DNA from: Elusimicrobiota bacterium
GTDB taxonomy: Bacteria > Elusimicrobiota > Endomicrobiia > Endomicrobiales > Endomicrobiaceae
NCBI GenBank assembly: GCA_017528425.1
Contig: JAFXOV010000015.1
Location: 1-64,000, forward strand
Length of the DNA stretch: 64,000 nt
Direction of reading: 5' to 3'
The notes below the pieces were generated by a model. The model was not told the DNA's origin and made no database searches. It saw nothing but the letters and a program-made list of their open reading frames with translations. Of this stretch, positions 2,092 to 47,661 are shown piece after piece. Position numbers and translations under genes: made by a program. Position 1 is the first letter of the stretch, and the number at the start of each line of letters is the position of its first letter.

Positions 2092-2820
2092 ATGGAAAAA
2101 TTCAAAAATAAAGTTGTAATAGTTACAGGCGGGGTATCCGGTATAGGTAAATGCATTGCCGAACAATTCTATAAACAAAAAGCAAAAGTTATTATTATTG
2201 ATAAAAATAATTGTGATACAAAATGCGACTTTTTTTATAAAGGAGATATAACTAATAAAAAAGTTATTATTGATTTTATAAAGCAGATTATAAAAAAATA
2301 TGAAAAAGTTGATTTTATTATAAACAATGCAGGTCTTTCTAAAGGCGGCTTATTGTCTTGCAGTTATGAAAATTTTTTGTATGTTCAAAAGTTAAGTTTG
2401 GCCGCACCTTTTATGCTTGTAAAACAACTGATTAACAATTTAAATAAAAATGCAGCAATAATAAATATTTCATCTTCAAGAGCATTTCAGTCACAACCCG
2501 ATTGGGAAAGTTATGGTGCGGCAAAAGGCGGTATTATTGCATTAACACATGCAATGGCAGTAACATTAAAAGGTAAGGCAAGGGTAAATTGCATTTCACC
2601 TGGTTGGATAGATACTTTAAATTCAAAATTTTCAAAAGAAGATAAATCTCAACATCCCGCAAATACTGTAGGAGAACCTAAAGATATAGCAAATATGGTT
2701 TTATTTTTATGTTCAAATAAAGCAAAATTTATTACCGGAGAAAATATAACTATTGATGGCGGTATGAGCAAACTTATGGTTTATCATAACGATTACGGTT
2801 GGCAGTATAAGGAAGATTAG
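2092..2820 (+). CDS. Short-chain dehydrogenase/reductase (SDR)
   Basis: A 242-residue classical SDR. The Rossmann cofactor motif TGGVSGIG is at residues 12-19, NNAG follows in mid-protein, and the catalytic Ser-Tyr-Lys set is visible as NISSSRAF then SYGAAKGG. The C-terminal FITGENITIDGGMS is the normal SDR ending. An Asp (IIIDKN) after strand 2 points to NAD(H) rather than NADP(H). AGAGGAAAT precedes the ATG. The neighbouring NimA-like flavoprotein gives no clear substrate, so only the general reaction (alcohol/ketone oxidoreduction) can be stated. Confidence 0.9.
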   Translation: MEKFKNKVVIVTGGVSGIGKCIAEQFYKQKAKVIIIDKNNCDTKCDFFYKGDITNKKVIIDFIKQIIKKYEKVDFIINNAGLSKGGLLSCSYENFLYVQKLSLAAPFMLVKQLINNLNKNAAIINISSSRAFQSQPDWESYGAAKGGIIALTHAMAVTLKGKARVNCISPGWIDTLNSKFSKEDKSQHPANTVGEPKDIANMVLFLCSNKAKFITGENITIDGGMSKLMVYHNDYGWQYKED

Positions 2821-2880
2821 TTTGACATTAGAGTTGCTTTAAGTTGTAAAATATAATAATAAATTGCTTTACAATTTGTT

Positions 2881-2997
2881 GAGGTATATAAGTATAGGAA
2901 CGGCAGTTTAAAGGTTGAAGAAAAACCAAATAGTATATCTTTTGTTATACAAAAACACATTAAACTATTCAACTATTAAACTGTTCAACCATTCAAC
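2881..2997 (+). repeat. Octamer tandem array and complementary arm before the aldo/keto reductase
   Basis: Positions 2959-2997 read as 4.9 copies of an eight-base word: ATTAAACT, ATTCAACT, ATTAAACT, GTTCAACC, ATTCAAC. Upstream, 2904-2919 (CAGTTTAAAGGTTGAA) is the reverse complement of 2968-2983 at 14 of 16 positions, so the spacer can fold back on itself. A further purine-rich stretch with the same rhythm starts at 2881. No reading frame uses this sequence. Confidence 0.75.
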
Positions 2998-3020
2998 AAA
3001 AAAATCCGGAGGATTTTTTT
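2998..3020 (+). promoter_or_regulatory. Perfect triloop hairpin carrying the Shine-Dalgarno, abutting the ATG
   Basis: Arms AAAAAAATCC (2998-3007) and GGATTTTTTT (3011-3020) pair perfectly around the loop GGA (3008-3010). The start codon is the very next base (3021). The only ribosome-binding site, GGAGGA, spans the loop and the top of the 3' arm. The same arrangement precedes carA and carB. Confidence 0.75.
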
Positions 3021-4271
3021 ATGAACAGAAGACAATTTTTAAAGTCGGCTTTGTTCACTACTATAGGGGCAATTGTATTATCTGCGAGCAAGAAAGTTAC
3101 CGCAGAAACAAAAAAGGTTATAGGAAAAGTTTACACAAAAAAGTTTAAAAATCTCGATATTTCTGCTATCGGCTTTGGTCTTATGAGACTTCCGACAAAA
3201 CTTGGTGATCCCGATGTTTCAGCAACACAAGCGATGGTGGATTATGCAATGGAACATGGTATCAATTATTATGATACCGCATGGTTTTATCATGGGGGAA
3301 AGTCCGAACTTACTGCAGGTAAAGTGTTAAAAAAATATCCGAGAAACAGTTATTATTTGGCAGATAAACTTCCTTTAAGCCGTTTAACCGGAAAAGATAG
3401 TGTTTTAGAATTTTTTAACGAGCAACTAAACAGATGTCAGGTTGATTATTTCGATTTTTATTTGGCACATTGCATAAATGAAAGTGAATGGAAAACAGTA
3501 AAAGAATACAATATTTATGAACAACTTTCACAAAAGAAAAAAGAAGGTAAAATAAAATATTTAGGCTTTTCCTTTCACGCCACACCGGAACTTTTGGAAG
3601 AAGTTATCAGTACATATGAATGGGATTTTGTTCAACTTCCTATCAACTTAATAGATTGGGAAAAAACAGACAGTAGCGGTTGGTACGGTGTAAATGCAAA
3701 AAAACAATATGAAATAGTGACGAAAGCCGGTATTCCCGTTGTGGTAATGAATCCGTTAAAAGGCGGACAGCTATCTACTCTTAATTCAAAAGCGGTTGAG
3801 TTATTAAAAAGAGAAAATCCGGAAGCTTCACCGTCGTCATGGTCTTTAAGATATGTTGCATCTTTAGAAAATGTTTTTTGTGTGTTAAGCGGTATGACGG
3901 AAATGGAACATATGGTAGACAATGTTAATACATTTATAAACTTTAAACCGTTAACCGAAAAAGAACAAAAAATACTTTCCAATGCTATTGCCGTATATAA
4001 ATCTTCCGGAGCAATTACATGTACATATTGCAAATATTGTGACGGTTGTCCGATAGGAATAGATATCCCGAAAAATTTTAATATATACAACGAATATAAA
4101 TCCGATAACAAAAAAGATAAATTCATTGCAGCTTACGAAGGTATTAAAGAAGAAAACAGGCCTGATAAATGTATCAGTTGCGGAATATGTAAACCGAAAT
4201 GTCCTCAGAAACTTGATATTCCTAACCTTTTAAAAGAAGTCAGTGATCTGTATAAGAAATTAAAAGGATAA
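3021..4271 (+). CDS. Tat-exported aldo/keto reductase with C-terminal ferredoxin domain
   Basis: A 416-residue protein. The N-terminus MNRRQFLKSALFTTIGAIVL is a twin-arginine signal, so the folded, cofactor-loaded protein is probably exported. Residues ~45-320 are an AKR barrel with the catalytic Asp and Tyr in YYDTAWFYHGG, Lys in LADKLP and His in YLAHC. The C-terminal ~80 residues carry two cysteine clusters, CTYCKYCDGCP and CISCGICKPKCP, matching two [4Fe-4S] centres. This fused form is common in anaerobes; the electron acceptor is unknown. A monocistronic unit: its upstream spacer is repeat-rich and the nitrogen promoter follows ten bases after the stop. Confidence 0.9.
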   Translation: MNRRQFLKSALFTTIGAIVLSASKKVTAETKKVIGKVYTKKFKNLDISAIGFGLMRLPTKLGDPDVSATQAMVDYAMEHGINYYDTAWFYHGGKSELTAGKVLKKYPRNSYYLADKLPLSRLTGKDSVLEFFNEQLNRCQVDYFDFYLAHCINESEWKTVKEYNIYEQLSQKKKEGKIKYLGFSFHATPELLEEVISTYEWDFVQLPINLIDWEKTDSSGWYGVNAKKQYEIVTKAGIPVVVMNPLKGGQLSTLNSKAVELLKRENPEASPSSWSLRYVASLENVFCVLSGMTEMEHMVDNVNTFINFKPLTEKEQKILSNAIAVYKSSGAITCTYCKYCDGCPIGIDIPKNFNIYNEYKSDNKKDKFIAAYEGIKEENRPDKCISCGICKPKCPQKLDIPNLLKEVSDLYKKLKG

Positions 4272-4680: not shown

Positions 4681-6009
4681 ATGAGAAAGTTGTTGATTGG
4701 TATGTTCTTGTTCTTAATTTCTTTTTGTGTGTTTTCTCCCGTATATGCACAGGAGATTGAACAAGTAACAGAAGAGGTTGTCGTTCAAGAAGTAAATAAC
4801 GTGAGTGGAGCAGATACCGCATTTATAATTATTTGTGCTGCGCTTGTTATGGTTATGACTCCGGGAGTTGCATTGTTTTACGGAGGTATGGTTAGAAGAA
4901 AAAATGTTTTAGGTATGTTGATGCAAAGCTTTGTTGTTTTAGGTATTGCTACCGTTATATGGTTACTTTACGGTTACAGTTTGGCATTCGGCCCGGATAT
5001 CGGACATGTAATCGGTAGTTTAAAGTGGGCATTTTTAGACGGTGTAGGACTTGAACCTGATCCGACATATTCGTCTACATTGCCACATCAATTGTATATG
5101 GCATTTCAAATGATGTTTGCGGTATTAACACCTGCTCTTATCACAGGTGCTTTTGCAGAAAGGTTTAAATTTAAAGCTTTTATAATATTTATTGCCGTTT
5201 GGATTACAATAGTTTATTGCCCTATCGCTCATTGGGTATGGGGACAAGGAGGTTGGATAGGAAACTTGGGCGGACTTGATTTCGCAGGCGGTCTTGTAGT
5301 TCATATAGCTTCGGGAACGTCGGCATTTGCGGCAATTTTAGTATTGGGAACAAGATCCGGATACAAGAAGGAAGCTATGCCGCCACACAATTTGCCTATA
5401 ACATTTATAGGTGCTACAATATTGTGGATAGGTTGGTTCGGATTCAATGCAGGTAGTGCATTGGAAGCTTCGGGACTTGCTGTATCGGCTTTTGTTGTAA
5501 CTCATATTGCCGCAGGAGCTGCTTTACTTTCGTGGATGATAGCAGAATGGTTGTATAGAGGAAAACCTACCGTTTTGGGTGCAGTATCGGGGGCAGTTGC
5601 AGGACTTGTTGCAATTACGCCTGCTGCAGGGTTCGTTACTCCGATATCGGCATTGATTATAGGTTTTGCCGGTGGAATAGTTTGTTTCCTTGCCGTTAAC
5701 TTGAAAGAAAGATTCGGTTACGACGATTCTTTGGATGTTATCGGTGTTCATGGTGTAGGTGGTATTTTGGGTGCTTTACTTACCGGAATATTTGCTACAA
5801 CATTGGTTAATCCCGCCGGAGCGGACGGTGGCGTAGAATTGTTAAAAATTCAGACGATAAGTGTTGTTTCTACAATAGCATATTCGTTTATAGTATCGTT
5901 TATAATATTAAAAGTAATTGATAAGTTTGTAGGAATAAGAGTAGAACATAAGGAAGAATTGCAGGGCTTGGATTTATCGCAACACGGAGAAAGCGGATAC
6001 AGATTCTAG
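4681..6009 (+). CDS. amtB: Ammonium transporter AmtB
   Basis: A 442-residue Amt/Rh-family channel for ammonium in the inner membrane. A cleavable signal (MRKLLIGMFLFLISFCVFS...YAQ) precedes eleven helices. The twin pore histidines are visible in DFAGGLVVHIASG and VIGVHGVGGILGALLTG, with the AFAERFKF loop between. The start has a strong site (AGGAGGAAG). The PII gene glnK follows after 16 bases, the standard pairing in which the PII T-loop plugs the AmtB cytoplasmic exit. Transcription passes two ANTAR-type attenuators first, so expression is probably controlled by antitermination. Confidence 0.96.
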   Translation: MRKLLIGMFLFLISFCVFSPVYAQEIEQVTEEVVVQEVNNVSGADTAFIIICAALVMVMTPGVALFYGGMVRRKNVLGMLMQSFVVLGIATVIWLLYGYSLAFGPDIGHVIGSLKWAFLDGVGLEPDPTYSSTLPHQLYMAFQMMFAVLTPALITGAFAERFKFKAFIIFIAVWITIVYCPIAHWVWGQGGWIGNLGGLDFAGGLVVHIASGTSAFAAILVLGTRSGYKKEAMPPHNLPITFIGATILWIGWFGFNAGSALEASGLAVSAFVVTHIAAGAALLSWMIAEWLYRGKPTVLGAVSGAVAGLVAITPAAGFVTPISALIIGFAGGIVCFLAVNLKERFGYDDSLDVIGVHGVGGILGALLTGIFATTLVNPAGADGGVELLKIQTISVVSTIAYSFIVSFIILKVIDKFVGIRVEHKEELQGLDLSQHGESGYRF

Positions 6010-6025
6010 AAGATTGGAGGAAAAA

Positions 6026-6364
6026 ATGAAAAAAATTTGTGCAATAGTAAAGCCATATATTGTAGAAGATATTAAAAATGCTCTTACCGAAATCGGTGTA
6101 AACGGACTTACAAAGTCTAATGTCGAAGGTTTCGGTAAACAGGGCGGACATAAAGAAATTTATAGAAGTAAGGAATATAGTGTAAACTTTATCATGAAGA
6201 CAAAAATCGAAGTTATTGTTAAAGACGATATGGTTGATAAAGTTATAGATCTTATAATTAACATCGCAAGAACAGGAGATATCGGCGACGGAAAGATCTT
6301 TGTTTATCCGGTAGAGAGAGTAATACGAATAAGGACAGGGGAAGAAGGCGAAAAAGCTATATAG
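6026..6364 (+). CDS. glnK: PII nitrogen regulatory protein
   Basis: A 112-residue PII protein that senses 2-oxoglutarate and ATP/ADP. The T-loop tyrosine falls exactly at residue 51 (SKEYSVNF), the site of uridylylation in GlnB/GlnK. The B-loop (TGDIGDGKIFV) and C-loop (VIRIRTGEEGEKAI) are intact. I chose ATG 6026 because TTGGAGG lies directly upstream and gives the standard length; the in-frame TTG at 6014 is part of that site. Linkage to amtB favours the GlnK role. The last codons and stop lie inside a perfect palindrome (6349-6372). Confidence 0.95.
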   Translation: MKKICAIVKPYIVEDIKNALTEIGVNGLTKSNVEGFGKQGGHKEIYRSKEYSVNFIMKTKIEVIVKDDMVDKVIDLIINIARTGDIGDGKIFVYPVERVIRIRTGEEGEKAI

Positions 6365-6372
6365 CTTTTTCG
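6349..6372 (+). terminator. Palindrome over the glnK stop codon, probable terminator
   Basis: A perfect 12+12-base palindrome spans the last four codons, the TAG stop (6362-6364) and eight bases beyond. A T-rich run follows at 6383-6393. It can fold as a ten-pair stem with a TATA loop and most likely ends the amtB-glnK transcript. Confidence 0.6.
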
Positions 6373-6389
6373 AGTTGAACGAATTTTTC

Positions 6390-6488
6390 TTTTAAGCTAT
6401 AACTTTATATTTGCCTTCTTCGAGTACCACTCGCTTCGCTTTCATTTCAGTACACTTCAGTCGGCAAATATCTTGTTATAGCTTAAAA
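6390..6488 (+). repeat. Palindromic element, copy B, with 14-bp outer arms
   Basis: The core runs 6407-6471 with ends ATATTTGCC and GGCAAATAT. Outside it, TTTTAAGCTATAAC (6390-6403) and GTTATAGCTTAAAA (6475-6488) are a perfect 14-base inverted repeat. The core aligns with copies A and C; the two bases outside the shared ATTTGCC/GGCAAAT differ among copies yet always remain complementary. Confidence 0.7.
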
Positions 6489-6537
6489 TTTTGAAATTCT
6501 TTGAATGCCAAGAAAAAGGTAACACAAAATCTTAAGG
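6475..6537 (+). repeat. 63-bp direct repeat, copy 1
   Basis: It begins GTTATAGCTTAAAA and ends AACACAAAATCTTAAGG. It differs from copy 2 at only a few positions. Its right end (AAATCTTAAGGTCTC) is found again after element copy C at 43624-43638. Confidence 0.75.
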
Positions 6538-6639
6538 TCTCTAACGACAACAACAACGACAAACTACACAAAATATAAACTTTTTCCTATTTCCTTGTTG
6601 CCTTGTCTAAATTTAAAATATTGCATCGCAAAGGTTTTT

Positions 6640-6702
6640 GTTACAGCTTAAAAATTTGAAATTCTTTGGAATCCAATAAAAAGGTAACACAAAATCTTAA
6701 GG
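6640..6702 (+). repeat. 63-bp direct repeat, copy 2
   Basis: It begins GTTACAGCTTAAAAATTTG and ends AACACAAAATCTTAAGG, the same length as copy 1. The preceding TTGCC...TCGCAAA (about 6597-6632) looks like a decayed short form of the palindromic element that precedes copy 1. Confidence 0.75.
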
Positions 6703-6756
6703 ACTTGAACTGCTTTTTTTGTCGTTATTAATTGTACATTGTCTTTCTTTTGTCTT

Positions 6757-6773
6757 CCCGCACTTGATGCGGG
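6757..6773. repeat. Short palindromic repeat (CCCGCA hairpin)
   Basis: CCCGCA and TGCGGG pair around CTTGA. It is the inverted counterpart of the hairpin at 4411-4431, with compensating stem changes. Confidence 0.5.
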
Positions 6774-6788
6774 ATCTCGTTGTTATCA

Positions 6789-6823
6789 TTAAACTATAAA
6801 CCACAAACTGAAAACTAAAAATT
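6789..6823. repeat. Heptamer tandem array
   Basis: Five seven-base words in a row: TTAAACT, ATAAACC, ACAAACT, GAAAACT, AAAAATT. It lies just before the promoter of the ANTAR gene. Confidence 0.5.
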
Positions 6824-6842
6824 GTTCTCGATAACTTTCTTG

Positions 6843-6871
6843 TTGACAGTAACAAAAAAAAAGAATATAAT
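6843..6871 (+). promoter_or_regulatory. Consensus sigma-70 promoter of the ANTAR gene
   Basis: TTGACA (6843-6848) and TATAAT (6866-6871) are both perfect and 17 bases apart, the strongest promoter match in the window. Transcription should start near 6878, giving a 155-nt leader. Confidence 0.9.
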
Positions 6872-6893
6872 TAATAAAAACTAAATAAAGATA

Positions 6894-6934
6894 TTGAGCA
6901 AAGGTGCTTAGAGAAAATTTCTTTAAGCACCTTT
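6894..6934 (+). promoter_or_regulatory. ANTAR-type hairpin unit in the leader of the ANTAR gene
   Basis: TTGAGC (6894-6899) pairs with GCTTAG (6906-6911) around the hexaloop AAAGGT, with A1 and G4. As in the amtB leader, loop and 3' strand are reused by a longer hairpin (6900-6914 with 6920-6934). Unlike the amtB units no clean T-run follows (ATCTGTG), so termination here is less certain. Confidence 0.6.
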
Positions 6935-6974
6935 ATCTGTGAACGAACAAGATTTTTTGCAAAAGCATAATATT

Positions 6975-7015
6975 AAGTTTAGTTTTAAACTTATAAACGA
7001 TACGTTTTATAAGTT
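6975..7015 (+). promoter_or_regulatory. Two overlapping hairpins just before the ANTAR ribosome-binding site
   Basis: AAGTTTA and TAAACTT (6975-6981, 6986-6992) form one hairpin. AACTTATAAACG (6988-6999) and CGTTTTATAAGTT (7003-7015) form a stronger one that reuses the bases of the first. The AAGGAGG site begins four bases later. They may tune translation; this is inference from pairing alone. Confidence 0.4.
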
Positions 7016-7032
7016 TTAAGGAGGTACCCTTT

Positions 7033-7623
7033 ATGGACAAGACAAATTTATTGTTGGTATGTTCACAGAAACAAGCAGACGAAATAAAGGCTTTACTATC
7101 TCTTTCTACAAACGATTTTGCAGTTACTCATATAGAAAAATCGGGAAATGAAGTTTTAAGAAAGGTTAATCTGATAGTTCCGGATATTGTTATAACGGAA
7201 TATTCGTTGGAAGATATGACAGGTTATGACCTTGCGGTAAAAATAGAAGAATTGAAAATTTGTCCTACAATAATACTTGCAAATTCTTTTCAGAGCGATA
7301 ATATAGACGAACTTAAAAAAGATTCTTTAGATATATTTTGTATAACGAAACCTATAAATAAACAGGTTTTAATTCATACTACTGCACTTGCAGTAAGATT
7401 ATCACATAAATTTCGTGATATAGCACAAAGAGTTACGGATCTTGAATATCAAATAGAAGAAAGAAAGAACGTTGACAGAGCAAGAGGAATTTTGATGAAA
7501 AAGTTCAAGATGGACGAAAGCAGTGCATATAATAATATAAGAAAAAAAGCTATGGATTCCGGAAGAACGATAAACGATATAGCAAAGACAATAATAAAGA
7601 TGTTTGAAAAATTTAACGATTGA
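7033..7623 (+). CDS. ANTAR-domain RNA-binding antitermination regulator with pseudo-receiver
   Basis: A 196-residue protein with a receiver-like domain (residues 1-120), a short helical linker (~120-145) and an ANTAR domain (~145-192) marked by RARGILMKKFKMDESSAYNNI and MDSGRTINDIAKTI. ANTAR proteins bind paired hexaloop hairpins in nascent RNA and prevent termination. The receiver lacks the phosphoacceptor: the segment reads PDIVITEYS, with Glu where Asp belongs, and the acidic pair after strand 1 is replaced (LLLVCSQ). The Lys of the KP motif remains. It resembles AmiR/NasR-type regulators that are not controlled by phosphorylation. Its own leader and that of amtB carry candidate targets, so ammonium uptake is the likely regulon. 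The start has AAGGAGG. Confidence 0.92.
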   Translation: MDKTNLLLVCSQKQADEIKALLSLSTNDFAVTHIEKSGNEVLRKVNLIVPDIVITEYSLEDMTGYDLAVKIEELKICPTIILANSFQSDNIDELKKDSLDIFCITKPINKQVLIHTTALAVRLSHKFRDIAQRVTDLEYQIEERKNVDRARGILMKKFKMDESSAYNNIRKKAMDSGRTINDIAKTIIKMFEKFND

Positions 7624-7785
7624 GATACAGAAGAATAGAGGCATAGAAGTATAGAATGATAGAAAAAGATAACGACAACAGATTGCAATACGACTAAACC
7701 TTTTCGCAATGACAAGTGTCGTCATTACAAATAAAGCAATCCAAGTCATTTCCATACATCCGTGCATCCATGCTTCCTTACAACC
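7622..7785. repeat. Octamer-armed spacer between the ANTAR gene and carA
   Basis: The left arm (7622-7665) reads in eight-base words GAGATACA, GAAGAATA, GAGGCATA, GAAGTATA, GAATGATA, starting in the stop codon. The right arm (7752-7785) reads CCATACAT, CCGTGCAT, CCATGCTT, CCTTACAA. The arms are loosely complementary. Between them, 7681-7741 is a nested palindromic stretch bounded by GATTGC and GCAATC with an inner AATGAC/GTCATT hairpin. Confidence 0.7.
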
Positions 7786-7806
7786 AAAAAATACGGAGTA
7801 TTTTTT
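7786..7806 (+). promoter_or_regulatory. Perfect triloop hairpin carrying the carA Shine-Dalgarno
   Basis: AAAAAATAC (7786-7794) and GTATTTTTT (7798-7806) pair perfectly around GGA. The ribosome-binding GGAG spans loop and 3' arm. The carA ATG follows three bases later. Confidence 0.75.
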
Positions 7807-7809
7807 AAA

Positions 7810-8937
7810 ATGATTAATAACTTGAAAAGAAAGAAAGCGGTATTGGAACTTTCAAACGGTATGAAGTTTGAAGGTAAACTTATAGGATATGATGCTGCGG
7901 TAAGCGGGGAAATGGTTTTTAATACCGGAATGCTCGGTTACAGCGAATCAATGTCGGATCCGTCTTATATAGGGCAAATTCTTGTTTTCAGCTTTTGCCT
8001 TATAGGAAATTACGGAGTTCCTAAATTAGAAAACGATAACTTTTTAACGGCTCTCGGTCACGAAAGTTCATCGATAAAAACACAAGGTATTATAGTTTCC
8101 GAAATATTCGACGAGAGTTATCACTACGGCAGTATGATACCTCTCGAACAGTGGATGATAGAACAAAAAGTTCCCGGAATTGCAGGAATAGACACAAGAT
8201 ATTTAGTTCAGACAATAAGAAACACAAGAAACCTTTTCGGATGGATTGTTCCCGAAGGTTGCAAAAAAGAAAACACAATAAGAAAATTCCCTTTCATAGA
8301 AAACTTCAAAAAAGATGAATATATTGATCCGTCAAAATTCAATTTGATGCCGACGGTATCAACAAAAGAAAGAAAAGTATTCGGAACAGGCAGGAAAAAA
8401 GTTGCCGTTGTGGATTGCGGTGTAAAATGGAACATATTAAGAATGCTTGTAGACAGAGGTTGCCAAATAGAGTTGGTACCTTGGGATACTGATTTTTCAA
8501 CCGTTGAAGCGGACGGTTGGCTTATAAGTAACGGTCCCGGTGATCCGAGAAATACCGGAGACCTTGTAGATAGAGTAAAAGTGTTATTAAAAGGTGATAA
8601 ACCGGTTTTAGGTATTTGTTTAGGGCATCAAATAATATCTTTGGCAAGCGGTGCAAAAATAAAGAAAATGCCTTACGGTCACAGAAGTCATAACCAACCT
8701 GTCTTTATTATACCGGGGCAAAAGGCTTTTATGACGAGCCAAAATCATAGTTATATGGTAGATCCGTCAACAATTGCAAAAGATTGGTCTTTATGGTTTG
8801 AAAATGCAAACGATAAAGGTGTTGAAGGTATAAAACATAAAACAAAACCGTTTATGTCGGTACAGTTTCATCCGGAAGCGTCGAGCGGTCCTAACGATAC
8901 CGCTTGGATACTTACGGAATTTATAAACAAATTATAA
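7810..8937 (+). CDS. carA: Carbamoyl-phosphate synthase small (glutaminase) subunit
   Basis: A 375-residue subunit that hydrolyses glutamine and channels ammonia to CarB for pyrimidine and arginine synthesis. The N-terminal CPSase_sm domain (residues ~8-140, with YxGQI-type SYIGQILVF) is followed by a class I amidotransferase with the nucleophile in GICLGHQI and the His-Glu pair in QFHPEASSG. ATG 7810 was chosen because it follows the hairpin with GGAG and gives the family N-terminus; an in-frame ATG at 7762 lies inside the octamer repeat. It is separated from carB by a 146-base repeat spacer rather than the usual tight junction. Confidence 0.95.
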   Translation: MINNLKRKKAVLELSNGMKFEGKLIGYDAAVSGEMVFNTGMLGYSESMSDPSYIGQILVFSFCLIGNYGVPKLENDNFLTALGHESSSIKTQGIIVSEIFDESYHYGSMIPLEQWMIEQKVPGIAGIDTRYLVQTIRNTRNLFGWIVPEGCKKENTIRKFPFIENFKKDEYIDPSKFNLMPTVSTKERKVFGTGRKKVAVVDCGVKWNILRMLVDRGCQIELVPWDTDFSTVEADGWLISNGPGDPRNTGDLVDRVKVLLKGDKPVLGICLGHQIISLASGAKIKKMPYGHRSHNQPVFIIPGQKAFMTSQNHSYMVDPSTIAKDWSLWFENANDKGVEGIKHKTKPFMSVQFHPEASSGPNDTAWILTEFINKL

Positions 8938-8956
8938 AATTGCCAAAGGCAATTTT
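8936..8956 (+). terminator. Perfect triloop hairpin on the carA stop codon
   Basis: AAAATTGCC (8936-8944) and GGCAATTTT (8948-8956) pair perfectly around AAA. The first two bases belong to the TAA stop. It has the A-tract/T-tract form of a weak bidirectional terminator, which is odd between carA and carB. Confidence 0.5.
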
Positions 8957-9060
8957 GAGGTATAGAGGAATAGAAGTATAGAAGGATAGAAAAAACAATA
9001 ACGAAAAAAAACAGTCTTTTGTAGTTTCCATACATCCATACTTCCATACATCCATACATC
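8957..9060. repeat. Octamer-armed spacer between carA and carB
   Basis: The left arm (8957-8990) reads GAGGTATA, GAGGAATA, GAAGTATA, GAAGGATA. The right arm (9028-9060) reads CCATACAT, CCATACTT, CCATACAT, CCATACAT. Over 30 positions the left arm (8960-8989) matches the reverse complement of the right arm at 22; four of the eight differences are A/G at every eighth base. Confidence 0.8.
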
Positions 9061-9083
9061 AAAAATTTTCGGAGAAAATTTTT
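9061..9083 (+). promoter_or_regulatory. Perfect triloop hairpin carrying the carB Shine-Dalgarno, abutting the ATG
   Basis: AAAAATTTTC (9061-9070) and GAAAATTTTT (9074-9083) pair perfectly around GGA. The start codon is the next base. GGAG at the loop is the only ribosome-binding site. Confidence 0.75.
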
Positions 9084-12000
9084 ATGATACTAAATTTTTT
9101 AAAACCAAAAGGAAATAAAAAACAAAAAGTAATTCTTCTCGGTTCGGGAGCATTATCCATAGGCCAGGCCGGAGAATTTGATTATTCGGGTTCGCAAGCC
9201 GTAAAAGCTCTCCAGGAAGAAAATCTCGAAGTTATAGTCGTAAATCCTAATATTGCTTCCGTTCAAACAAACAAAGATACAGATAAAAAAGTTTATCTTT
9301 ATCCTGTAACACCGTTTTGGGTTCAAAAAGTTATAGAACAGGAAAAGCCCGTCGGTATAATATCAAGTTTCGGCGGACAAACAGCATTGAATTGTGTTAT
9401 AGATCTTTATAAAAGCGGAGTATTACAAAAATACGGAGTTGAAGTTTTAGGAACATCCGTTGCTTCTCTTGAAATGTCGGAAAACAGAGATTTGTTTGCC
9501 GCAAAGATGAAAGAAATAAATGTGCCTATTCCAGCAAGTAAAGCTGTGTCTTCCGTTAAAGAAGCTCTTAAAGTTGCAAAAGAAATCGGATATCCGGTAA
9601 TAACAAGATCAGCATTTGCTTTGGGTGGACTCGGCAGCGGTCTTGCGGAAAACGAAGAAAAGTTGGAACAGCTTGCATCTGCAGCTTTAATGAGTGTACC
9701 GCAAATCTTGATAGAAAAATCTTTATACGGTTGGAAAGAAATAGAATACGAAGTAATGAGAGACAGACAAGGTAATTGTATAACCATTTGTAATATGGAA
9801 AATTTTGACCCGATGGGAATACATACCGGTGACTCAATAGTTGTTGCCCCGTGCCAAACAATAGATAATATTGAAAATAACATGTTAAGAGATACCGCAA
9901 TAAAGATTGTTCATAATATCGGAGTAATAGGGGAATGTAATGTTCAGTTTGCATTAAGTCCTTACACAAAAGAGTTTTATGTAATAGAAATAAATGCAAG
10001 ACTTTCAAGATCATCCGCTCTTGCATCAAAAGCTACAGGATATCCTATAGCATATATCGCTGCAAAAGTTGTGTCGGGTTTTGATTTGCTTGAACTCAAA
10101 AATCCCGTAACACAAACAACATCGGCATTTTATGAACCGTCACTTGATTATGTAACATTAAAAGTCCCAAGATGGGACTTAACAAAATTTACCGGTGTTT
10201 CAAAACTTTTGGGAACACAGATGAAATCCGTCGGTGAAGTTATGGCTATCGGCAGAAATTTTTGTGAAATAACACAAAAAGCCATAAGAATGGTAAATGA
10301 AAATGATGAAGGTATAACGACGGGAATATTTAAAAATGCAACTAAAAAAGATCTCGAATACGAAATAGCAAATCCTACAAATTTAAGATTGTTTGCAATA
10401 TATGAAGCATTTAAAAGAGGTTATTCCATAGACAAAGTTGCAGATTTATCAAAAATTTCAAAATGGTTTTTGGAACATATAGAACGACTTGCAGATACCG
10501 AAAACGAGCTTGTTGAGTTACTGAAAAAGAGTAAAAAGAAAACAGTTTATGACGCATTTAAAGATTTAGGTAAAGAATATATAAGAAACTTAAAAAGACT
10601 CGGTTTTTCCGACTATCAGTTAGTTAAATTTTACCTTACAATAAAAGAACCTGACAAAAAACATACACAGAAAGATATTAAAAAACTTTCACTTGAAATA
10701 AGAAAATTAAGAAAGAAATTAAATATTGTTCCCGTAGTAAAACAGATAGATACAACATCCGCCGAATATCCTACAAGTTCAAACTATTTATATTTGTCTT
10801 ACGACGGAACACACAATGATATAACACTTACAAAGAAAAACTCCGGAATTATTACGTTGGGCAGCGGAAGCTACAGAATAGGCAGCAGTTGCGAATTTGA
10901 TTGGTGTTCTGTAATGACAAGTAAATATTTCAAAACAAAAAGGGAAGACAGTATAATTATAAACTGTAATCCGGAAACCGTATCGACGGACTTTTCAACT
11001 TCAGACAGATTGTATTTCGAAGAACTTTCTTTTGAAAGAGTGTTGGATATTGTGGATATAGAAAAGCCGAAAGGTGTTATAGCTTGTATGGGCGGACAAA
11101 ACCCCAACAACCTTATACCGTCGTTGAACGATGCTAAAGTTAAAATTTTGGGACACAGTGCAAAAACGGTAGATATGGCGGAAGACAGAAACAAGTTTTC
11201 TGCACTGCTTGATAAAATGGGCATAGATCAACCCGAATGGATAGCTGCAACATCAAGAAAAGAAATAGATGAATTTATAGAAAGAGTGGGATATCCTGTT
11301 TTAATAAGACCGAGTTTTGTGTTGTCGGGAACACTTATGAACGTTGCCGGTGACGAAAAAAGTTTGGATTATTTCCTTTCGTTAACAAAAGATATTTCGG
11401 ACGATTATCCTGTAGTAATTTCAAAGTTTATTCTCGACGCAAAAGAAGTTGAATGTGACGGAGTTGCCAAAAACGGTGAAGTAATAATTTCGTTGGTAAG
11501 CGAACACGTTGAAAATGCAGGTATTCACAGCGGAGATGCAACACTTGTATTCCCGCCGGAAAAACTTTATGTAAAAACGGTAAATACAATAAAAGATATA
11601 GTCAGAAAAATAGCTAAAGGTTTAAACCTTAACGGACCGTTCAATATTCAGTTTATTGCAAAAGATAACGATGTTAAGGTTATAGAATGTAATTCAAGAG
11701 CATCAAGGTCGTTCCCTTTCATATCAAAAGTTTCAGGTAAAAACCTTGCGGAAATTTCGTGCAAGGTTATGAATAACGAAAAGATAAGCAAAATAATGAT
11801 AGATGAAAGTGAAATTCCGTTTGTGGGAATGAAAGCTTCTATGTTCAGTTACCAAAGACTCGACGGCGCAGATCCCGTAACAGGTGTTGAAATGGGATCA
11901 ACCGGAGAAGTAGGTTGTTTGGGAACGGACTTTAATCAGGCAATGATTCTTTCCCTTGAAGCGACACAAATTAAAAAACCGGTTAAAGGTATATTGGTAA

Positions 12001-12368
12001 GTTCAGGCAGAGAAAGAGATAAAATAAAATTTATGGAAGTTGTGGAAAATTTATATAAATTGAATGTTCCGGTATATGCAACAACGGGAACGGCAAATTA
12101 TTTAAAAGCAAGGGGATATAATGTCCATATGGTTAATTGGACTGAAAATCCTAAAGCGATAAATGTTATAAAAGACGGTAAAGTTGATTTTGTAATTAAT
12201 ATACATAAAACGTTTGATATTTCCGAAAGAAAAGAAAATGCAATTATAAGAAAAGCTGCAATTAAGTGCGGTTGCTCTTTACTTACCAATATGGAAAAAG
12301 TTATTGCATACTTGAAATCACTCGACGAATACGACAAACTTCAAGATATTAAATGTATTAATTTATAA
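9084..12368 (+). CDS. carB: Carbamoyl-phosphate synthase large subunit
   Basis: A 1094-residue enzyme that makes carbamoyl phosphate from bicarbonate, two ATP and ammonia delivered by CarA. It shows the internal duplication of the family: two PreATP-grasp/ATP-grasp halves starting at KKQKVILLGSGALSIGQAGE and NSGIITLGSGSYRIGSSCEF, an oligomerisation region between them (~residues 410-560), and a C-terminal allosteric MGS-like domain (KPVKGILVSSGRERDKI). It is about 20 residues longer than the E. coli protein, partly from the N-terminal MILNFLKPKGNK lead. Start by adjacency to the hairpin-borne GGAG. Confidence 0.96.
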   Translation: MILNFLKPKGNKKQKVILLGSGALSIGQAGEFDYSGSQAVKALQEENLEVIVVNPNIASVQTNKDTDKKVYLYPVTPFWVQKVIEQEKPVGIISSFGGQTALNCVIDLYKSGVLQKYGVEVLGTSVASLEMSENRDLFAAKMKEINVPIPASKAVSSVKEALKVAKEIGYPVITRSAFALGGLGSGLAENEEKLEQLASAALMSVPQILIEKSLYGWKEIEYEVMRDRQGNCITICNMENFDPMGIHTGDSIVVAPCQTIDNIENNMLRDTAIKIVHNIGVIGECNVQFALSPYTKEFYVIEINARLSRSSALASKATGYPIAYIAAKVVSGFDLLELKNPVTQTTSAFYEPSLDYVTLKVPRWDLTKFTGVSKLLGTQMKSVGEVMAIGRNFCEITQKAIRMVNENDEGITTGIFKNATKKDLEYEIANPTNLRLFAIYEAFKRGYSIDKVADLSKISKWFLEHIERLADTENELVELLKKSKKKTVYDAFKDLGKEYIRNLKRLGFSDYQLVKFYLTIKEPDKKHTQKDIKKLSLEIRKLRKKLNIVPVVKQIDTTSAEYPTSSNYLYLSYDGTHNDITLTKKNSGIITLGSGSYRIGSSCEFDWCSVMTSKYFKTKREDSIIINCNPETVSTDFSTSDRLYFEELSFERVLDIVDIEKPKGVIACMGGQNPNNLIPSLNDAKVKILGHSAKTVDMAEDRNKFSALLDKMGIDQPEWIAATSRKEIDEFIERVGYPVLIRPSFVLSGTLMNVAGDEKSLDYFLSLTKDISDDYPVVISKFILDAKEVECDGVAKNGEVIISLVSEHVENAGIHSGDATLVFPPEKLYVKTVNTIKDIVRKIAKGLNLNGPFNIQFIAKDNDVKVIECNSRASRSFPFISKVSGKNLAEISCKVMNNEKISKIMIDESEIPFVGMKASMFSYQRLDGADPVTGVEMGSTGEVGCLGTDFNQAMILSLEATQIKKPVKGILVSSGRERDKIKFMEVVENLYKLNVPVYATTGTANYLKARGYNVHMVNWTENPKAINVIKDGKVDFVINIHKTFDISERKENAIIRKAAIKCGCSLLTNMEKVIAYLKSLDEYDKLQDIKCINL

Positions 12369-22467: not shown

Positions 22468-22508
22468 CCAATCTTCCAATCATCCAATCTTCCAATCATC
22501 CGATCTTC
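22468..22508. repeat. Octamer tandem array upstream of aroE
   Basis: Five eight-base words: CCAATCTT, CCAATCAT, CCAATCTT, CCAATCAT, CCGATCTT. Words 1-2 and 3-4 are identical, so this is also a 16-base tandem repeat. Unlike the car spacers no complementary arm is evident; a looser AT-rich run (22413-22440) lies on the guaA side. Confidence 0.75.
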
Positions 22509-27107: not shown

Positions 27108-27836
27108 ATGGATAAATTATTCGGTAGAAATGCCGTGCTTGAAGCAATAAAGTCCGGTAACAGAACAATAAATAAAATTCTTATTTCTAAAACCGCTCAC
27201 GGCAGCAGTATAAGTGAAATTATTAAACTTGCCAAAGCAAAAGGTATTGTTATAAACAATGTTCCTCCTGAAAAGCTTGATAAATTCGAACAAGAAAATA
27301 CTCAGGGTGTTGTTGCCGAAGTTTCGGCAACAAATTATGTTGAACTTGAAGATTTAATAGATACCGTAAAAAACAAAAAAAACGGTTTATTATTACTTCT
27401 TGATTCTATAGAAGATCCGCACAATTTAGGTGCAATTATAAGGAATGCCGTATGTTTCGGTGTTGACGGGGTAATTATACCCAAATGGAGAAGTGCAACG
27501 ATAAATGAAACGGTTGAAAGAACATCTGCCGGTGCTGTAGAGCATATAAAAATAGCAAGAGTTACAAATTCGTCGCAGGCAATATTAAAATTAAAAGATA
27601 ACGGTTTTTGGGTTCTCGGTGCCGAAAACGGAAACAATTCAATAACTGATACAAAAATTCCTTTTCCCGCAGTTTTGGTTATGGGAAGCGAAGGGTTTGG
27701 AATACATCAAAAAATAAAAGAAAAATGTGATTTTATTATAACCATACCGCAAAAGAGTACAATTTCTTCTTTAAATGTCTCTTGTGCCAGTGCAGTAATT
27801 CTGTACGAAATATTTAAACAAATTAGTAATTGCTAA
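27108..27836 (+). CDS. rlmB: 23S rRNA 2'-O-methyltransferase, TrmH/RlmB family
   Basis: A 242-residue SPOUT enzyme that methylates 23S rRNA ribose (G2251 in E. coli). An N-terminal substrate-binding domain (FGRNAVLEAIKSGNRTINKI) precedes the knotted catalytic domain with LDSIEDPHNLGAIIRNA, VMGSEGFGI and STISSLNVSCASAVILYEI. The last codons (Ile-Ser-Asn-Cys-stop) are written by the heptamer array that begins at 27822, so the repeat has captured the gene end. Confidence 0.93.
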   Translation: MDKLFGRNAVLEAIKSGNRTINKILISKTAHGSSISEIIKLAKAKGIVINNVPPEKLDKFEQENTQGVVAEVSATNYVELEDLIDTVKNKKNGLLLLLDSIEDPHNLGAIIRNAVCFGVDGVIIPKWRSATINETVERTSAGAVEHIKIARVTNSSQAILKLKDNGFWVLGAENGNNSITDTKIPFPAVLVMGSEGFGIHQKIKEKCDFIITIPQKSTISSLNVSCASAVILYEIFKQISNC

Positions 27837-27849
27837 TTTCTAATTGAAA
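27822..27849. repeat. Heptamer tandem array overlapping the rlmB stop codon
   Basis: Four seven-base words: ATTAGTA, ATTGCTA, ATTTCTA, ATTGAAA. The rlmB stop TAA is at 27834-27836, inside word 2/3. Confidence 0.65.
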
Positions 27850-27868
27850 ATAGCATTTTCAATTTTAT
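27842..27868 (+). terminator. Triloop hairpin after rlmB, probable terminator
   Basis: AATTGAAAAT (27842-27851) and ATTTTCAATT (27855-27864) pair perfectly around AGC and are followed by TTATTTT. GC-poor but of terminator form, and the hisD promoter box follows at once. Confidence 0.55.
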
Positions 27869-27870
27869 TT

Positions 27871-27879
27871 TGGTAAAAT
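27871..27879 (+). promoter_or_regulatory. Extended -10 box of hisD
   Basis: TGG followed by TAAAAT forms an extended -10 element; no -35 is evident at 17 bases. It ends nine bases before the hisD ATG, and no Shine-Dalgarno lies between, so the message is probably leaderless. Confidence 0.6.
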
Positions 27880-27888
27880 TATAAGACA

Positions 27889-37418: not shown

Positions 37419-38333
37419 ATGGATTCAAGAAAAATATTATCAAAAATAGCATATTATTATATTGCTTTTACCAAAATGACATTAAGAGTAAGAAGTATAG
37501 ATTTGGTAGGCAGATTCAAAGAACAAAGTGTATATGCGCTTTGGCACGGAGAACAAATTCTTCCTTTGTGTCTTAATTCCGGAAGACAAATTGTTGCCAT
37601 GTGCAGTATGTCTAAAGACGGGGAAATTCAAGCCGGAGTATTGAGAGATTTTGACTTTATAGCGGTAAGAGGTTCTTCGTCGAAAAGAGCGGAAAGAGCA
37701 TTAATAGAAACAATAAGATATGCAAGAAAAGGTCATTTTGTTGCATTTACCGTTGACGGCCCCAGAGGTCCTATACACAAAGTAAAATCCGGCCTTCTTT
37801 TGGTATCTCAAAAAATAGGTATAAGATTAATACCGATATCCGCAATATCAAAAAATTCTTTAACATTTAAGAAAGCATGGGATAAATTTAAGGTTCCTTT
37901 ACCTTTTTCAAAGACGGTTGCCGTTTACGGTAACCCTATAGTGATAGGAAAAGATGATAATTTGGAAGAAAAAGCTTTGATAGTTGAAAAAGAGTTGAAT
38001 AAATTAAGTGAATTTGCGAATAAATATTATTGGTCTAAAGATATAAACGAATATTTGAGTCATCATCCGAAACCTAAAATATTTATAAAGTGTAAAAATA
38101 ATATAAACACTTGTATAGCAAAAATAAACGAATTAAAACAAAAATATCCCTTATCCGTATTTACTTTGTATATTTCCGATAAAGAAAATAAAAACATTTC
38201 ATTACCTCAGGATGTGTCCGTTATAAACAAAATAACATCAAAACTTAAAGAAGAAGTTTTCGATGTTTGTTACGGAACTTCTTTTTTTGATAACCTTCGA
38301 ATTAAACCTAATTTTAAACAACCTTTAATTTAA
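37419..38333 (+). CDS. DUF374-family lysophospholipid/lipid A acyltransferase-like protein with C-terminal extension
   Basis: A 304-residue protein. Residues ~30-200 match the DUF374 acyltransferase group: VYALWHGEQILPL (with the His of the HX4D-type site), AVRGSSSKRAERAL, FTVDGPRGPIHKVKSGLL. Members probably acylate a lipid A-type precursor. The last ~100 residues (after SEFANKYYWSKDINEYL) are not part of that family; they look like a small alpha/beta domain of unknown role. ATG 37419 follows the promoter by 45 bases. Confidence 0.85.
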   Translation: MDSRKILSKIAYYYIAFTKMTLRVRSIDLVGRFKEQSVYALWHGEQILPLCLNSGRQIVAMCSMSKDGEIQAGVLRDFDFIAVRGSSSKRAERALIETIRYARKGHFVAFTVDGPRGPIHKVKSGLLLVSQKIGIRLIPISAISKNSLTFKKAWDKFKVPLPFSKTVAVYGNPIVIGKDDNLEEKALIVEKELNKLSEFANKYYWSKDINEYLSHHPKPKIFIKCKNNINTCIAKINELKQKYPLSVFTLYISDKENKNISLPQDVSVINKITSKLKEEVFDVCYGTSFFDNLRIKPNFKQPLI

Positions 38334-38339
38334 CTATAG

Positions 38340-38368
38340 TTGAACGGTTTTCGGTAAAAATGTACAAT
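38340..38368 (+). promoter_or_regulatory. Promoter of the TSUP permease gene
   Basis: TTGAAC (38340-38345) and TACAAT (38363-38368) are 17 bases apart. The -10 box ends ten bases before the ATG, so the message is nearly leaderless. Confidence 0.75.
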
Positions 38369-38378
38369 ATCAACCATT

Positions 38379-45878: not shown

Positions 45879-47534
45879 GTGCTTACCGCATTATCCGTTA
45901 AAAATTACGCTCTTATAGAAAATATCACTATAAATTTTAAAGAAGGGCTTACCGTTATAACAGGCGAAACCGGAGCGGGAAAATCCATTATTATGGATTC
46001 AATTGATTTATTGTTGGGAGCAAGAGCAAGTACAAGTATCATAAGAACAGGAGCAACATTTTGCTCGGTTGTTGCAGAATTTGATATTTCAAAAAATTTC
46101 AATGTCAAAAAAATGCTTACCGATTTATCAATAGATATTTCCGATGAAATTATAATAAGAAGACAAATAGATGTTGCCGGAAAAAACAAAGCTTTTATTA
46201 ACGACGTTTCGGTAAGTGTAAATACTCTTTCGAATATAGGAAAATACTTGGTGGATTTTTATGCTCAGCACAAAAGCAACATGTTATTTGAACAAAGTTA
46301 TCAAAGACAAATAGTTGATGAAATGGCAAATAACAATTCTTTATTGGAAGAACTGTCCGAAAAGTATGATAAGTTTGAAGAATTAAAAAAACAAAAAGAA
46401 GAAATAGAAAAAGCCAATACCGACAGAGAAAGGTTGTTGGATTTATATAAATATCAAATAAATGAAATAAATAAAGCGAATTTAAATTCCGATGAAGAAG
46501 GTCAAATCGATCAGGAACTGCCTAAATTAAAAAATGCGGAAAAAATAAAGAACGTTACTAATGAAATGTTGTCTATATTATATAAACAAGATCATTCTGT
46601 TACGGATAACCTTTCAATAATAAACAAACAAATTTCTCTTTTGGAAAAATACGGCGTAAATGTTGAATCTATTTCGGAAAATATAAGTTCGGCAATCAGT
46701 GAAATAGATGATGCTTACAAAGAAATTGAAGATTTATCAAACAACCTGGATGCTTCTCCCGAAAAGTTGGATAGTATGCAGGAAAGACAACAACTGATAA
46801 AAAAATTAAAATCCAAGTATGGTAAAGATATAGAAGAACTTATCGATTACGGCAAAGAATTGGAAGAGAAAGTAAAAAATCTTGAAAATTACGAGATAAA
46901 TATTGATAAAATTCAAAATGAAATCGAAGCTGTATTAAAGGAAATTATAAAAATTTGCACACAAATCTCCGATAAAAGAAAAAAAACAGCAAAAAAAATA
47001 TCTAAAGAAATTGTGTCTGAACTTTCAGATTTGAATATGAAAAATTCTCAATTTGAAATTGAGATTAAAGAGGGAGACATATCGAGAACAGGATTCGACG
47101 ACTTAGAATTTATGTTTAGTGCAAATAAAGGGGAACAATTGTATCCTTTAGCTGATGTTGCTTCCGGCGGAGAAATATCCAGAGTACTGCTTGCATTATC
47201 AACGGTAATATCAAACAGTTATAATGTTGATACCATTATTTTTGATGAAATTGATACGGGAACAAGCGGGAAAACAGGGGAAAAAATCGGTAAAAAATTA
47301 AAAAGTTTATCAAAACAAAGACAGATTATTTCCATATCTCATTTGGCTCAAATTGCATCATTTGCAGATAACCATATAAAAATATATAAAGAAGCCGAAA
47401 ACGGCAGAAATATAACGAAAGCTAAAGATTTAAACGACAAGGAAAGAGTAGAAGAAATAGCCAAAATAATATCCGGTGAAAAAGTAACGGAACATGCCAT
47501 AAAACATGCTGAAGAACTCCTAAAAGACAATTGA
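45879..47534 (+). CDS. recN: DNA repair protein RecN
   Basis: A 551-residue SMC-like ATPase for double-strand break repair. Walker A is TVITGETGAGKSIIMDSIDLLLG near the N-terminus; coiled coils occupy ~residues 155-220 and 280-370; the C-terminal half has the signature VASGGEISRVLLAL and Walker B TIIFDEIDTGTSG. The start is GTG with GGGGAG ten bases upstream, inside nadK. Its stop codon is also the first three bases of a heptamer array. Confidence 0.95.
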   Translation: MLTALSVKNYALIENITINFKEGLTVITGETGAGKSIIMDSIDLLLGARASTSIIRTGATFCSVVAEFDISKNFNVKKMLTDLSIDISDEIIIRRQIDVAGKNKAFINDVSVSVNTLSNIGKYLVDFYAQHKSNMLFEQSYQRQIVDEMANNNSLLEELSEKYDKFEELKKQKEEIEKANTDRERLLDLYKYQINEINKANLNSDEEGQIDQELPKLKNAEKIKNVTNEMLSILYKQDHSVTDNLSIINKQISLLEKYGVNVESISENISSAISEIDDAYKEIEDLSNNLDASPEKLDSMQERQQLIKKLKSKYGKDIEELIDYGKELEEKVKNLENYEINIDKIQNEIEAVLKEIIKICTQISDKRKKTAKKISKEIVSELSDLNMKNSQFEIEIKEGDISRTGFDDLEFMFSANKGEQLYPLADVASGGEISRVLLALSTVISNSYNVDTIIFDEIDTGTSGKTGEKIGKKLKSLSKQRQIISISHLAQIASFADNHIKIYKEAENGRNITKAKDLNDKERVEEIAKIISGEKVTEHAIKHAEELLKDN

Positions 47535-47661
47535 TAATGTACAATGTATAATTTATAATTAAGGTTGTTTTTTTGAAGAGTAAAAAACACTTATTTAATA
47601 AAAATTGCAATGCAATTTTTACCGACATTATACATTGTAAATTGTAAATTATAAATTATTG
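47532..47661. repeat. Heptamer-armed spacer between recN and greA
   Basis: The left array (47532-47559) reads TGATAAT, GTACAAT, GTATAAT, TTATAAT. The right array (47627-47661) reads ATTATAC, ATTGTAA, ATTGTAA, ATTATAA, ATTATTG. They are inverted copies: ACAATGTATAAT (47541-47552) and ATTATACATTGT (47627-47638) are exact reverse complements. Between them is a perfect triloop palindrome, AAAAATTGC and GCAATTTTT around AAT (47600-47620). Confidence 0.75.

Follow-up and report, generated by a model that had tools for sequence, protein, structure and literature searches.

A dispersed family of nested palindromic elements in gene spacers of Candidatus Ruminimicrobiellum and its probable copy between carA and carB

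The spacer between carA and carB is probably a copy of a dispersed, nested-palindromic, mRNA-borne family of the rumen genus Candidatus Ruminimicrobiellum (Endomicrobiaceae), equipped with a portable ribosome-binding hairpin. The family is modular and palindromic, and its members are dispersed through operon spacers, where they are gained, lost and replaced. The words of its arms change at a constant step, and its hairpins covary. We infer that members move as units, are transcribed and fold in the cell, and serve as portable ribosome-binding sites. A complete member would consist of a terminal hairpin, an arm of three to five degenerate 7- or 8-nt words, a middle that is either variable or a conserved two-hairpin core, a complementary arm, and a right-hand hairpin.

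Structure and strand of the carA-carB spacer

The window, the whole stretch of DNA analysed, is 64,000 nt long and lies within a 2.08-Mb genome (G000). The carAB region of the window contains the following features.

7762–8937, plus strand: carA, carbamoyl-phosphate synthase small chain (Pfam PF00988 and PF00117; open reading frame)
8936–8956, plus strand: left terminal triloop hairpin AAAATTGCC-AAA-GGCAATTTT, 21 nt, perfect (sequence and fold)
8957–8988, plus strand: left arm, purine-rich, four octamers (word GADGNATR; sequence)
8989–9028, plus strand: middle, 40 nt, between the arms and distinct from the two-hairpin core (sequence)
9029–9060, minus strand: right arm, four octamers of the left-arm word, inverted (sequence and arm matching)
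9061–9083, plus strand: start-codon hairpin AAAAATTTTC-GGA-GAAAATTTTT, 23 nt, perfect (sequence and fold)
9084–12368, plus strand: carB, large chain (Pfam PF02786, PF25596 and PF02787; open reading frame)

The true start of carA is likely the ATG at 7810. The left hairpin begins within the carA stop codon (TAA, 8935–8937) and is followed by the left-arm words GAGGTATA, GAGGAATA, GAAGTATA and GAAGGATA, in that order. Read as the complement, the right-arm words are GATGTATG, GATGTATG, GAAGTATG and GATGTATG. The Shine-Dalgarno bases GGAG are formed by the loop and closing pair of the start-codon hairpin, and the carB ATG adjoins directly at 9084. The covariance model of the two-hairpin core (R1) has no match in the middle (8989–9028).

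This division of the entire spacer into hairpin, four octamers, middle, four inverse octamers and hairpin is congruent with an earlier sequence-only reading, whose descriptive claims all hold for this spacer. Its count of complementary arm positions (22 of 30) is reproduced, and 150 shuffled spacers reach at most 21 over 30 bases. The difference that it saw at every eighth base is also present: every left word has A there, and every right word G. The spacer is a foldable unit, as that reading suggested, in that both strands fold better than shuffled sequences. The minus-strand RNA folds at -47.2 kcal/mol (z -8.0) and the plus-strand RNA, more weakly, at -29.4 kcal/mol (z -4.3).

The same reading took the minus strand as the functional or ancestral one and proposed a minus-strand small RNA unit, which is extremely unlikely. 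The best fold of this spacer is indeed that of the minus-strand RNA, but the preference does not extend to the family: 9 of 19 two-armed octamer elements fold better as the minus strand and 10 as the plus strand, where plus and minus are those of the source sequence as retrieved, regardless of gene direction. No promoter-like site above chance is found on the minus strand. Related core elements in tandem spacers mostly run in the direction of the downstream gene (48 of 59 sense, with 11 antisense), although the p value of this bias (1e-6) is too good because orthologous copies are counted, and shared ancestry could give part of it. That base 8 is A in one arm and G in the other falls within ordinary variation of the words. 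Replication rather than transcription as the source of the strand bias was tentatively rejected: third-codon skew is weak, but two discordant loci follow gene direction.

Words, step and core of the family

Four further features of the family are located in the window.

2861–3020, plus strand: third element, in a 5' UTR, with a hairpin (2861–2877), arms and a Shine-Dalgarno hairpin
7630–7806, plus strand: second element, octamer type, upstream of carA, of the same build as the carA-carB element
22468–22508, minus strand: intergenic octamer array, word GAWGATTG (array scan)
47527–47660, minus strand: core-type element with a two-hairpin core at 47559–47626 (covariance model R1, E 9.4e-7)

The second element contains an octamer arm (7630–7664), a REP-like middle, a decayed right arm (about 7753–7776) and a Shine-Dalgarno hairpin at 7786–7806 (AAAAAATAC-GGA-GTATTTTTT). 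In the third element partial GAGGTATA words are present, the right arm (2959–2997) is made of the word GTTKAATR, and the Shine-Dalgarno hairpin (2998–3020) adjoins the ATG at 3021. A paralogue of this locus, L032, has the same promoter and Shine-Dalgarno hairpin but GADGNATR words. Between window positions 2800–3030 and L032 the leader arms differ (TATTCAAC versus CATACATC), a word swap inside one genome. In the core-type element, heptamer arms (AATTTATA and TATAAATT) surround the core.

The region just upstream of carAB (4681–7623) encodes an ammonium transporter, a P-II protein and a response regulator whose ANTAR domain is of the RNA-binding kind, and these genes and carAB possibly form a nitrogen-control unit. 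Another structured repeat, GTACACTTCAGTCGGCAAATAT and variants with GGTACATAAG, is found at 6360–6720. Numerous spacers of the genus contain repeats of this type, in some cases beside or within octamer elements.

As a DNA query, the carA-carB spacer has 52 matches at E ≤10 in the genome it comes from, approximately 30 of them at E <0.05. A three-octamer GADGNATR pattern has 61 matches in the genome (one mismatch or fewer) versus 0 for the reversed control. Among the 84 genomes of the order, exact matches to the octamer pattern are dense in the host genus (g1). They occur in g4 and g14 as well, and hardly anywhere else.

The array scan covers 1.2 Mb from three species (417 kb of G000, 400 kb of G069 and 385 kb of G067). 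In these sequences there are 21, 16 and 12 self-similar arrays of period 7 and 8, 2 and 22 arrays of period 8, respectively. Other periods from 4 to 13 are represented by at most one array each, and period 14 is present as a multiple. At a looser threshold the three species contain 29, 18 and 34 arrays of period 7 or 8 and at most 1 of any other period below 14. Markov-simulated controls contain 0 arrays above threshold. The arrays are degenerate, are located between genes, and consist of many different words, often as inward-facing arms. Octamer words include GADGNATR, GAWGATTG, GTTKAATR and GGTTATAN, and heptamer words include AATTRTA, AATTAGN, GTTTATR and AGCTTAA. In relatives, arms of GGTGAANR and GCTGATAA are also present. 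Neighbouring octamer arrays no more than 260 nt apart face inward in 10 cases and outward in 0. A perfect hairpin directly precedes 26 of 80 arrays, versus 5 control positions.

Bacteroidetes, Saprospiraceae and unclassified rumen bacteria also have octamer arrays of the GADGNATR word, several with inverse arms. These arrays, far outside the family Endomicrobiaceae, are located at L133, L154, L161, L171, L188 and L205. Octamer arrays in such distant phyla suggest that the process behind them reaches beyond the host genus.

Between many of the arms, whether of period 7 or 8, lies a conserved 68-nt core that contains two hairpins. The covariance model of the core has 98 matches. They are confined to the host genus, in which 9 of 11 genomes have them, and to its sister g14. 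In the aligned copies (n=71), 96% of cells are paired. The core hairpins contain 128 double-change cells versus 40.7 in shuffles (0/500), and the signal collapses on sliding partners; the 71-copy alignment is fitted to the covariance model, and a sequence-based seed alignment shows the same covariation. Arms from the same copy are more complementary than swapped ones (p of about 1e-4 or below by permutation), a result that holds for the word class and not base by base. Four hybrids have arms of differing words (L358, L382, L389 and L399). Core copies are mostly located 25–130 nt from a start codon, between co-oriented genes, and some are antisense, divergent or convergent. Many arrays lack the core, that of carA-carB among them.

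Rfam covariance models do not match the element, and none match within 6300–9120, those of ANTAR-target RNAs included. A phage origin was considered and rejected; a core pattern has three viral matches, which resemble coding sequence and look like chance.

Species differences, the start-codon hairpin and alternative explanations

The carA-carB junction differs among species, and the block is present, reduced, replaced or absent. In G072 the element is nearly identical. In G069 the left arm is shared and a second unit is nested inside. In G067 only the first hairpin is retained, with a different insert. In G073 and G075 the arms are of another octamer, GSTGATAA, and the start hairpin is of the same type. 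In G077 and the g4 genomes checked, the spacer is short (approximately 35–40 nt) and the element is absent. These short spacers and differing inserts bear out the view of the sequence-only reading that the block is an insertion into an operon. In L107 (G070), a purine octamer array at approximately 1400–1500, GGAAGGATAGAAATTATG, seems to be the carB Shine-Dalgarno sequence itself.

Other spacers vary in the same way. Upstream of carA there is an octamer element in G000, a core element with heptamer arms in G067, and almost nothing in G069. Ahead of the gene at 27.1 kb, G069 and G067 have a filled spacer and G000 an empty one. From such comparisons, elements appear to insert into gene spacers, including those inside operons. 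Flank identity in the ortholog comparison is approximately 88%. The ortholog pairs, which are too diverged for exact ends, show neither a clean target-site duplication nor an exactly matched pair of empty and filled sites, and some "empty" sites may be deletions. A separate conserved structured repeat of approximately 230 nt (TTTTAAAATTTCTC...AGCAAAAAAGCCATTC...GTGCTCCAACTTG) has been inserted into the G069 and G067 spacers orthologous to window positions 27836–27888 (and, for G069, 38333–38378), and G000 lacks it. It recurs in other spacers.

Where orthologous arrays are present they are often identical (G000 versus G072 or G069), and the arrays are therefore not hypervariable. This bears on a purely mutational explanation, in which slippage of 7–8 nt and template switching at imperfect palindromes would act in tolerant spacers and there would be no element. 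Words that turn over while the step stays constant, perfect hairpins of many sequences, and similar octamer arrays in distant phyla are what such a process would leave. It is unlikely, however, since a 68-nt core with differing arms at about 100 sites needs dispersal, and arrays that are identical at orthologous sites are not hypermutable.

The right-hand hairpin is associated with gene starts. C-GGA-G triloops on stems of 7 or more adjoin a gene start in 16 cases, whereas most hairpins with the common loops C-AAA-G and C-TTT-G lie elsewhere. Among the matches listed for AA-W-NN-CGGAG-NN-W-TT before an ATG, perfect hairpins make up 22 of 43 in the host genus versus 11 of 107 in other genera. 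Stem changes in these hairpins are compensatory, which is illustrative only, as the hairpins were partly chosen for being hairpins. The right-hand hairpin thus seems to be a portable ribosome-binding site. Next to a start codon its loop is typically GGA, and position and enrichment point to GGAG as the Shine-Dalgarno sequence. Binding of CsrA to the GGA loop was rejected, as none of the 11 genomes of the genus has PF02599. There is a cold-shock protein, but nothing links it to the words.

Under the reading favoured here, the operon mRNA most likely folds into a hairpin, a long imperfect stem and a second hairpin, as computed, and would do so in the cell. The ribosome-binding hairpin, placed and enriched at start codons, would keep carB translatable after insertion. 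This would account for the tolerance of insertions in carAB and other essential operons. The structure (hairpins, complementary arms, and a step of 7 or 8) is what is conserved, and the word is rewritten from copy to copy and from species to species.

An alternative that we consider doubtful is that these are functional intercistronic RNAs rather than mobile DNA: regulatory or mRNA-stabilising palindromes under selection, with gain and loss reflecting turnover of sites. The strong covariation of the hairpins, the sense bias of 48:11, the Shine-Dalgarno bases within the terminal loop, and the sites close to start codons between co-oriented genes are all congruent with such RNAs. Species with 77–98% identical carB manage without the element, however, and no common function is apparent among the downstream genes. 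The absence of the core from many arrays, including carA-carB, and the antisense, divergent or convergent copies also argue against this explanation.

The dispersed palindromic family may, tentatively, be described more narrowly as a non-autonomous mobile element with rewritable ends. The core would spread with inverted repeats of 7- or 8-nt words, both arm words would be replaced together by fixed-step copying, and the element's own ribosome-binding hairpin would spare the next gene. In usual mobile repeats the ends are kept and the inside drifts; in this family it is the inside that is kept, between ends that differ in word yet stay complementary. A kept core with ends that change at a step of 7 or 8 nt would point to a DNA (or RNA-templated) copying process, and no such process was found described for bacterial repeats.

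Comparison with known repeat families

REPs (reviewed in PMC3733652) and REPINs (PMC3116915), like BIMEs, share several features with the elements described here. All are short palindromes in non-coding spacers, often in inverted pairs, with many copies per genome, many of them plausibly transcribed. The arms described here differ in that they are tandem 7- or 8-nt words, and the right-hand hairpin holds a Shine-Dalgarno sequence. An origin as REPIN/RAYT-like or IS200/IS605-derived non-autonomous transposons, with a Y1 (HUH) transposase acting on the terminal hairpins, is very unlikely. The terminal hairpins, palindromic pairs, intergenic sites and strand preference resemble those of REPINs and similar palindrome-ended elements, and Y1 transposases are present in the order, one of them in G073. 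However, RAYT is absent from the element-rich genomes, with no match to the RAYT/Y1 transposase family (PF01797) in G000, G067, G069 and G070. No GTAG/CGTC tag is seen by eye in the 71 core copies, and the hairpin sequence is not conserved, with stems that vary by compensatory changes. The family also differs from MITEs in having no conserved terminal inverted repeats; the arm word varies from copy to copy around one core.

Target RNAs of ANTAR proteins contain two tandem hairpins with hexaloops in a leader or spacer (PMC8934654, PMC3369931). The core also has two tandem hairpins, and a gene for an ANTAR regulator lies just upstream of carA, a resemblance only. The loops of the core hairpins are mostly of three bases, not six, and the core is not present at carA-carB.

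Direct repeats of the heptamer TAACTGA are found in Beggiatoaceae, Cyanobacteria and Bacteroidetes (MacGregor 2015, PMC4679880). In the Guaymas Maribeggiatoa genome they are mostly just upstream of start codons, and their mobility and function are unknown (PMC4679880). Short tandem heptamers in spacers are common to both systems. The TAACTGA repeats consist of one fixed word with hardly any inverted repeat, whereas here there are many degenerate words, complementary arms, hairpins and a core. TAACTGA is not among the array words listed in 417 kb of G000. The cyanobacterial STRR sequences are degenerate tandem heptanucleotide repeats in intergenic DNA. Degenerate tandem heptamers in spacers are likewise present here, as judged by period and location and not by the STRR sequence consensus. 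Unlike the STRR sequences, the family also contains octamers, palindromic pairing of arrays, and the Shine-Dalgarno hairpin.

As far as the literature found shows, word-variable complementary arms, a conserved core and a Shine-Dalgarno hairpin are combined in none of these repeat families. The family most likely belongs with the REP/STRR kind, with the twist that its core is conserved and its arms are variable.
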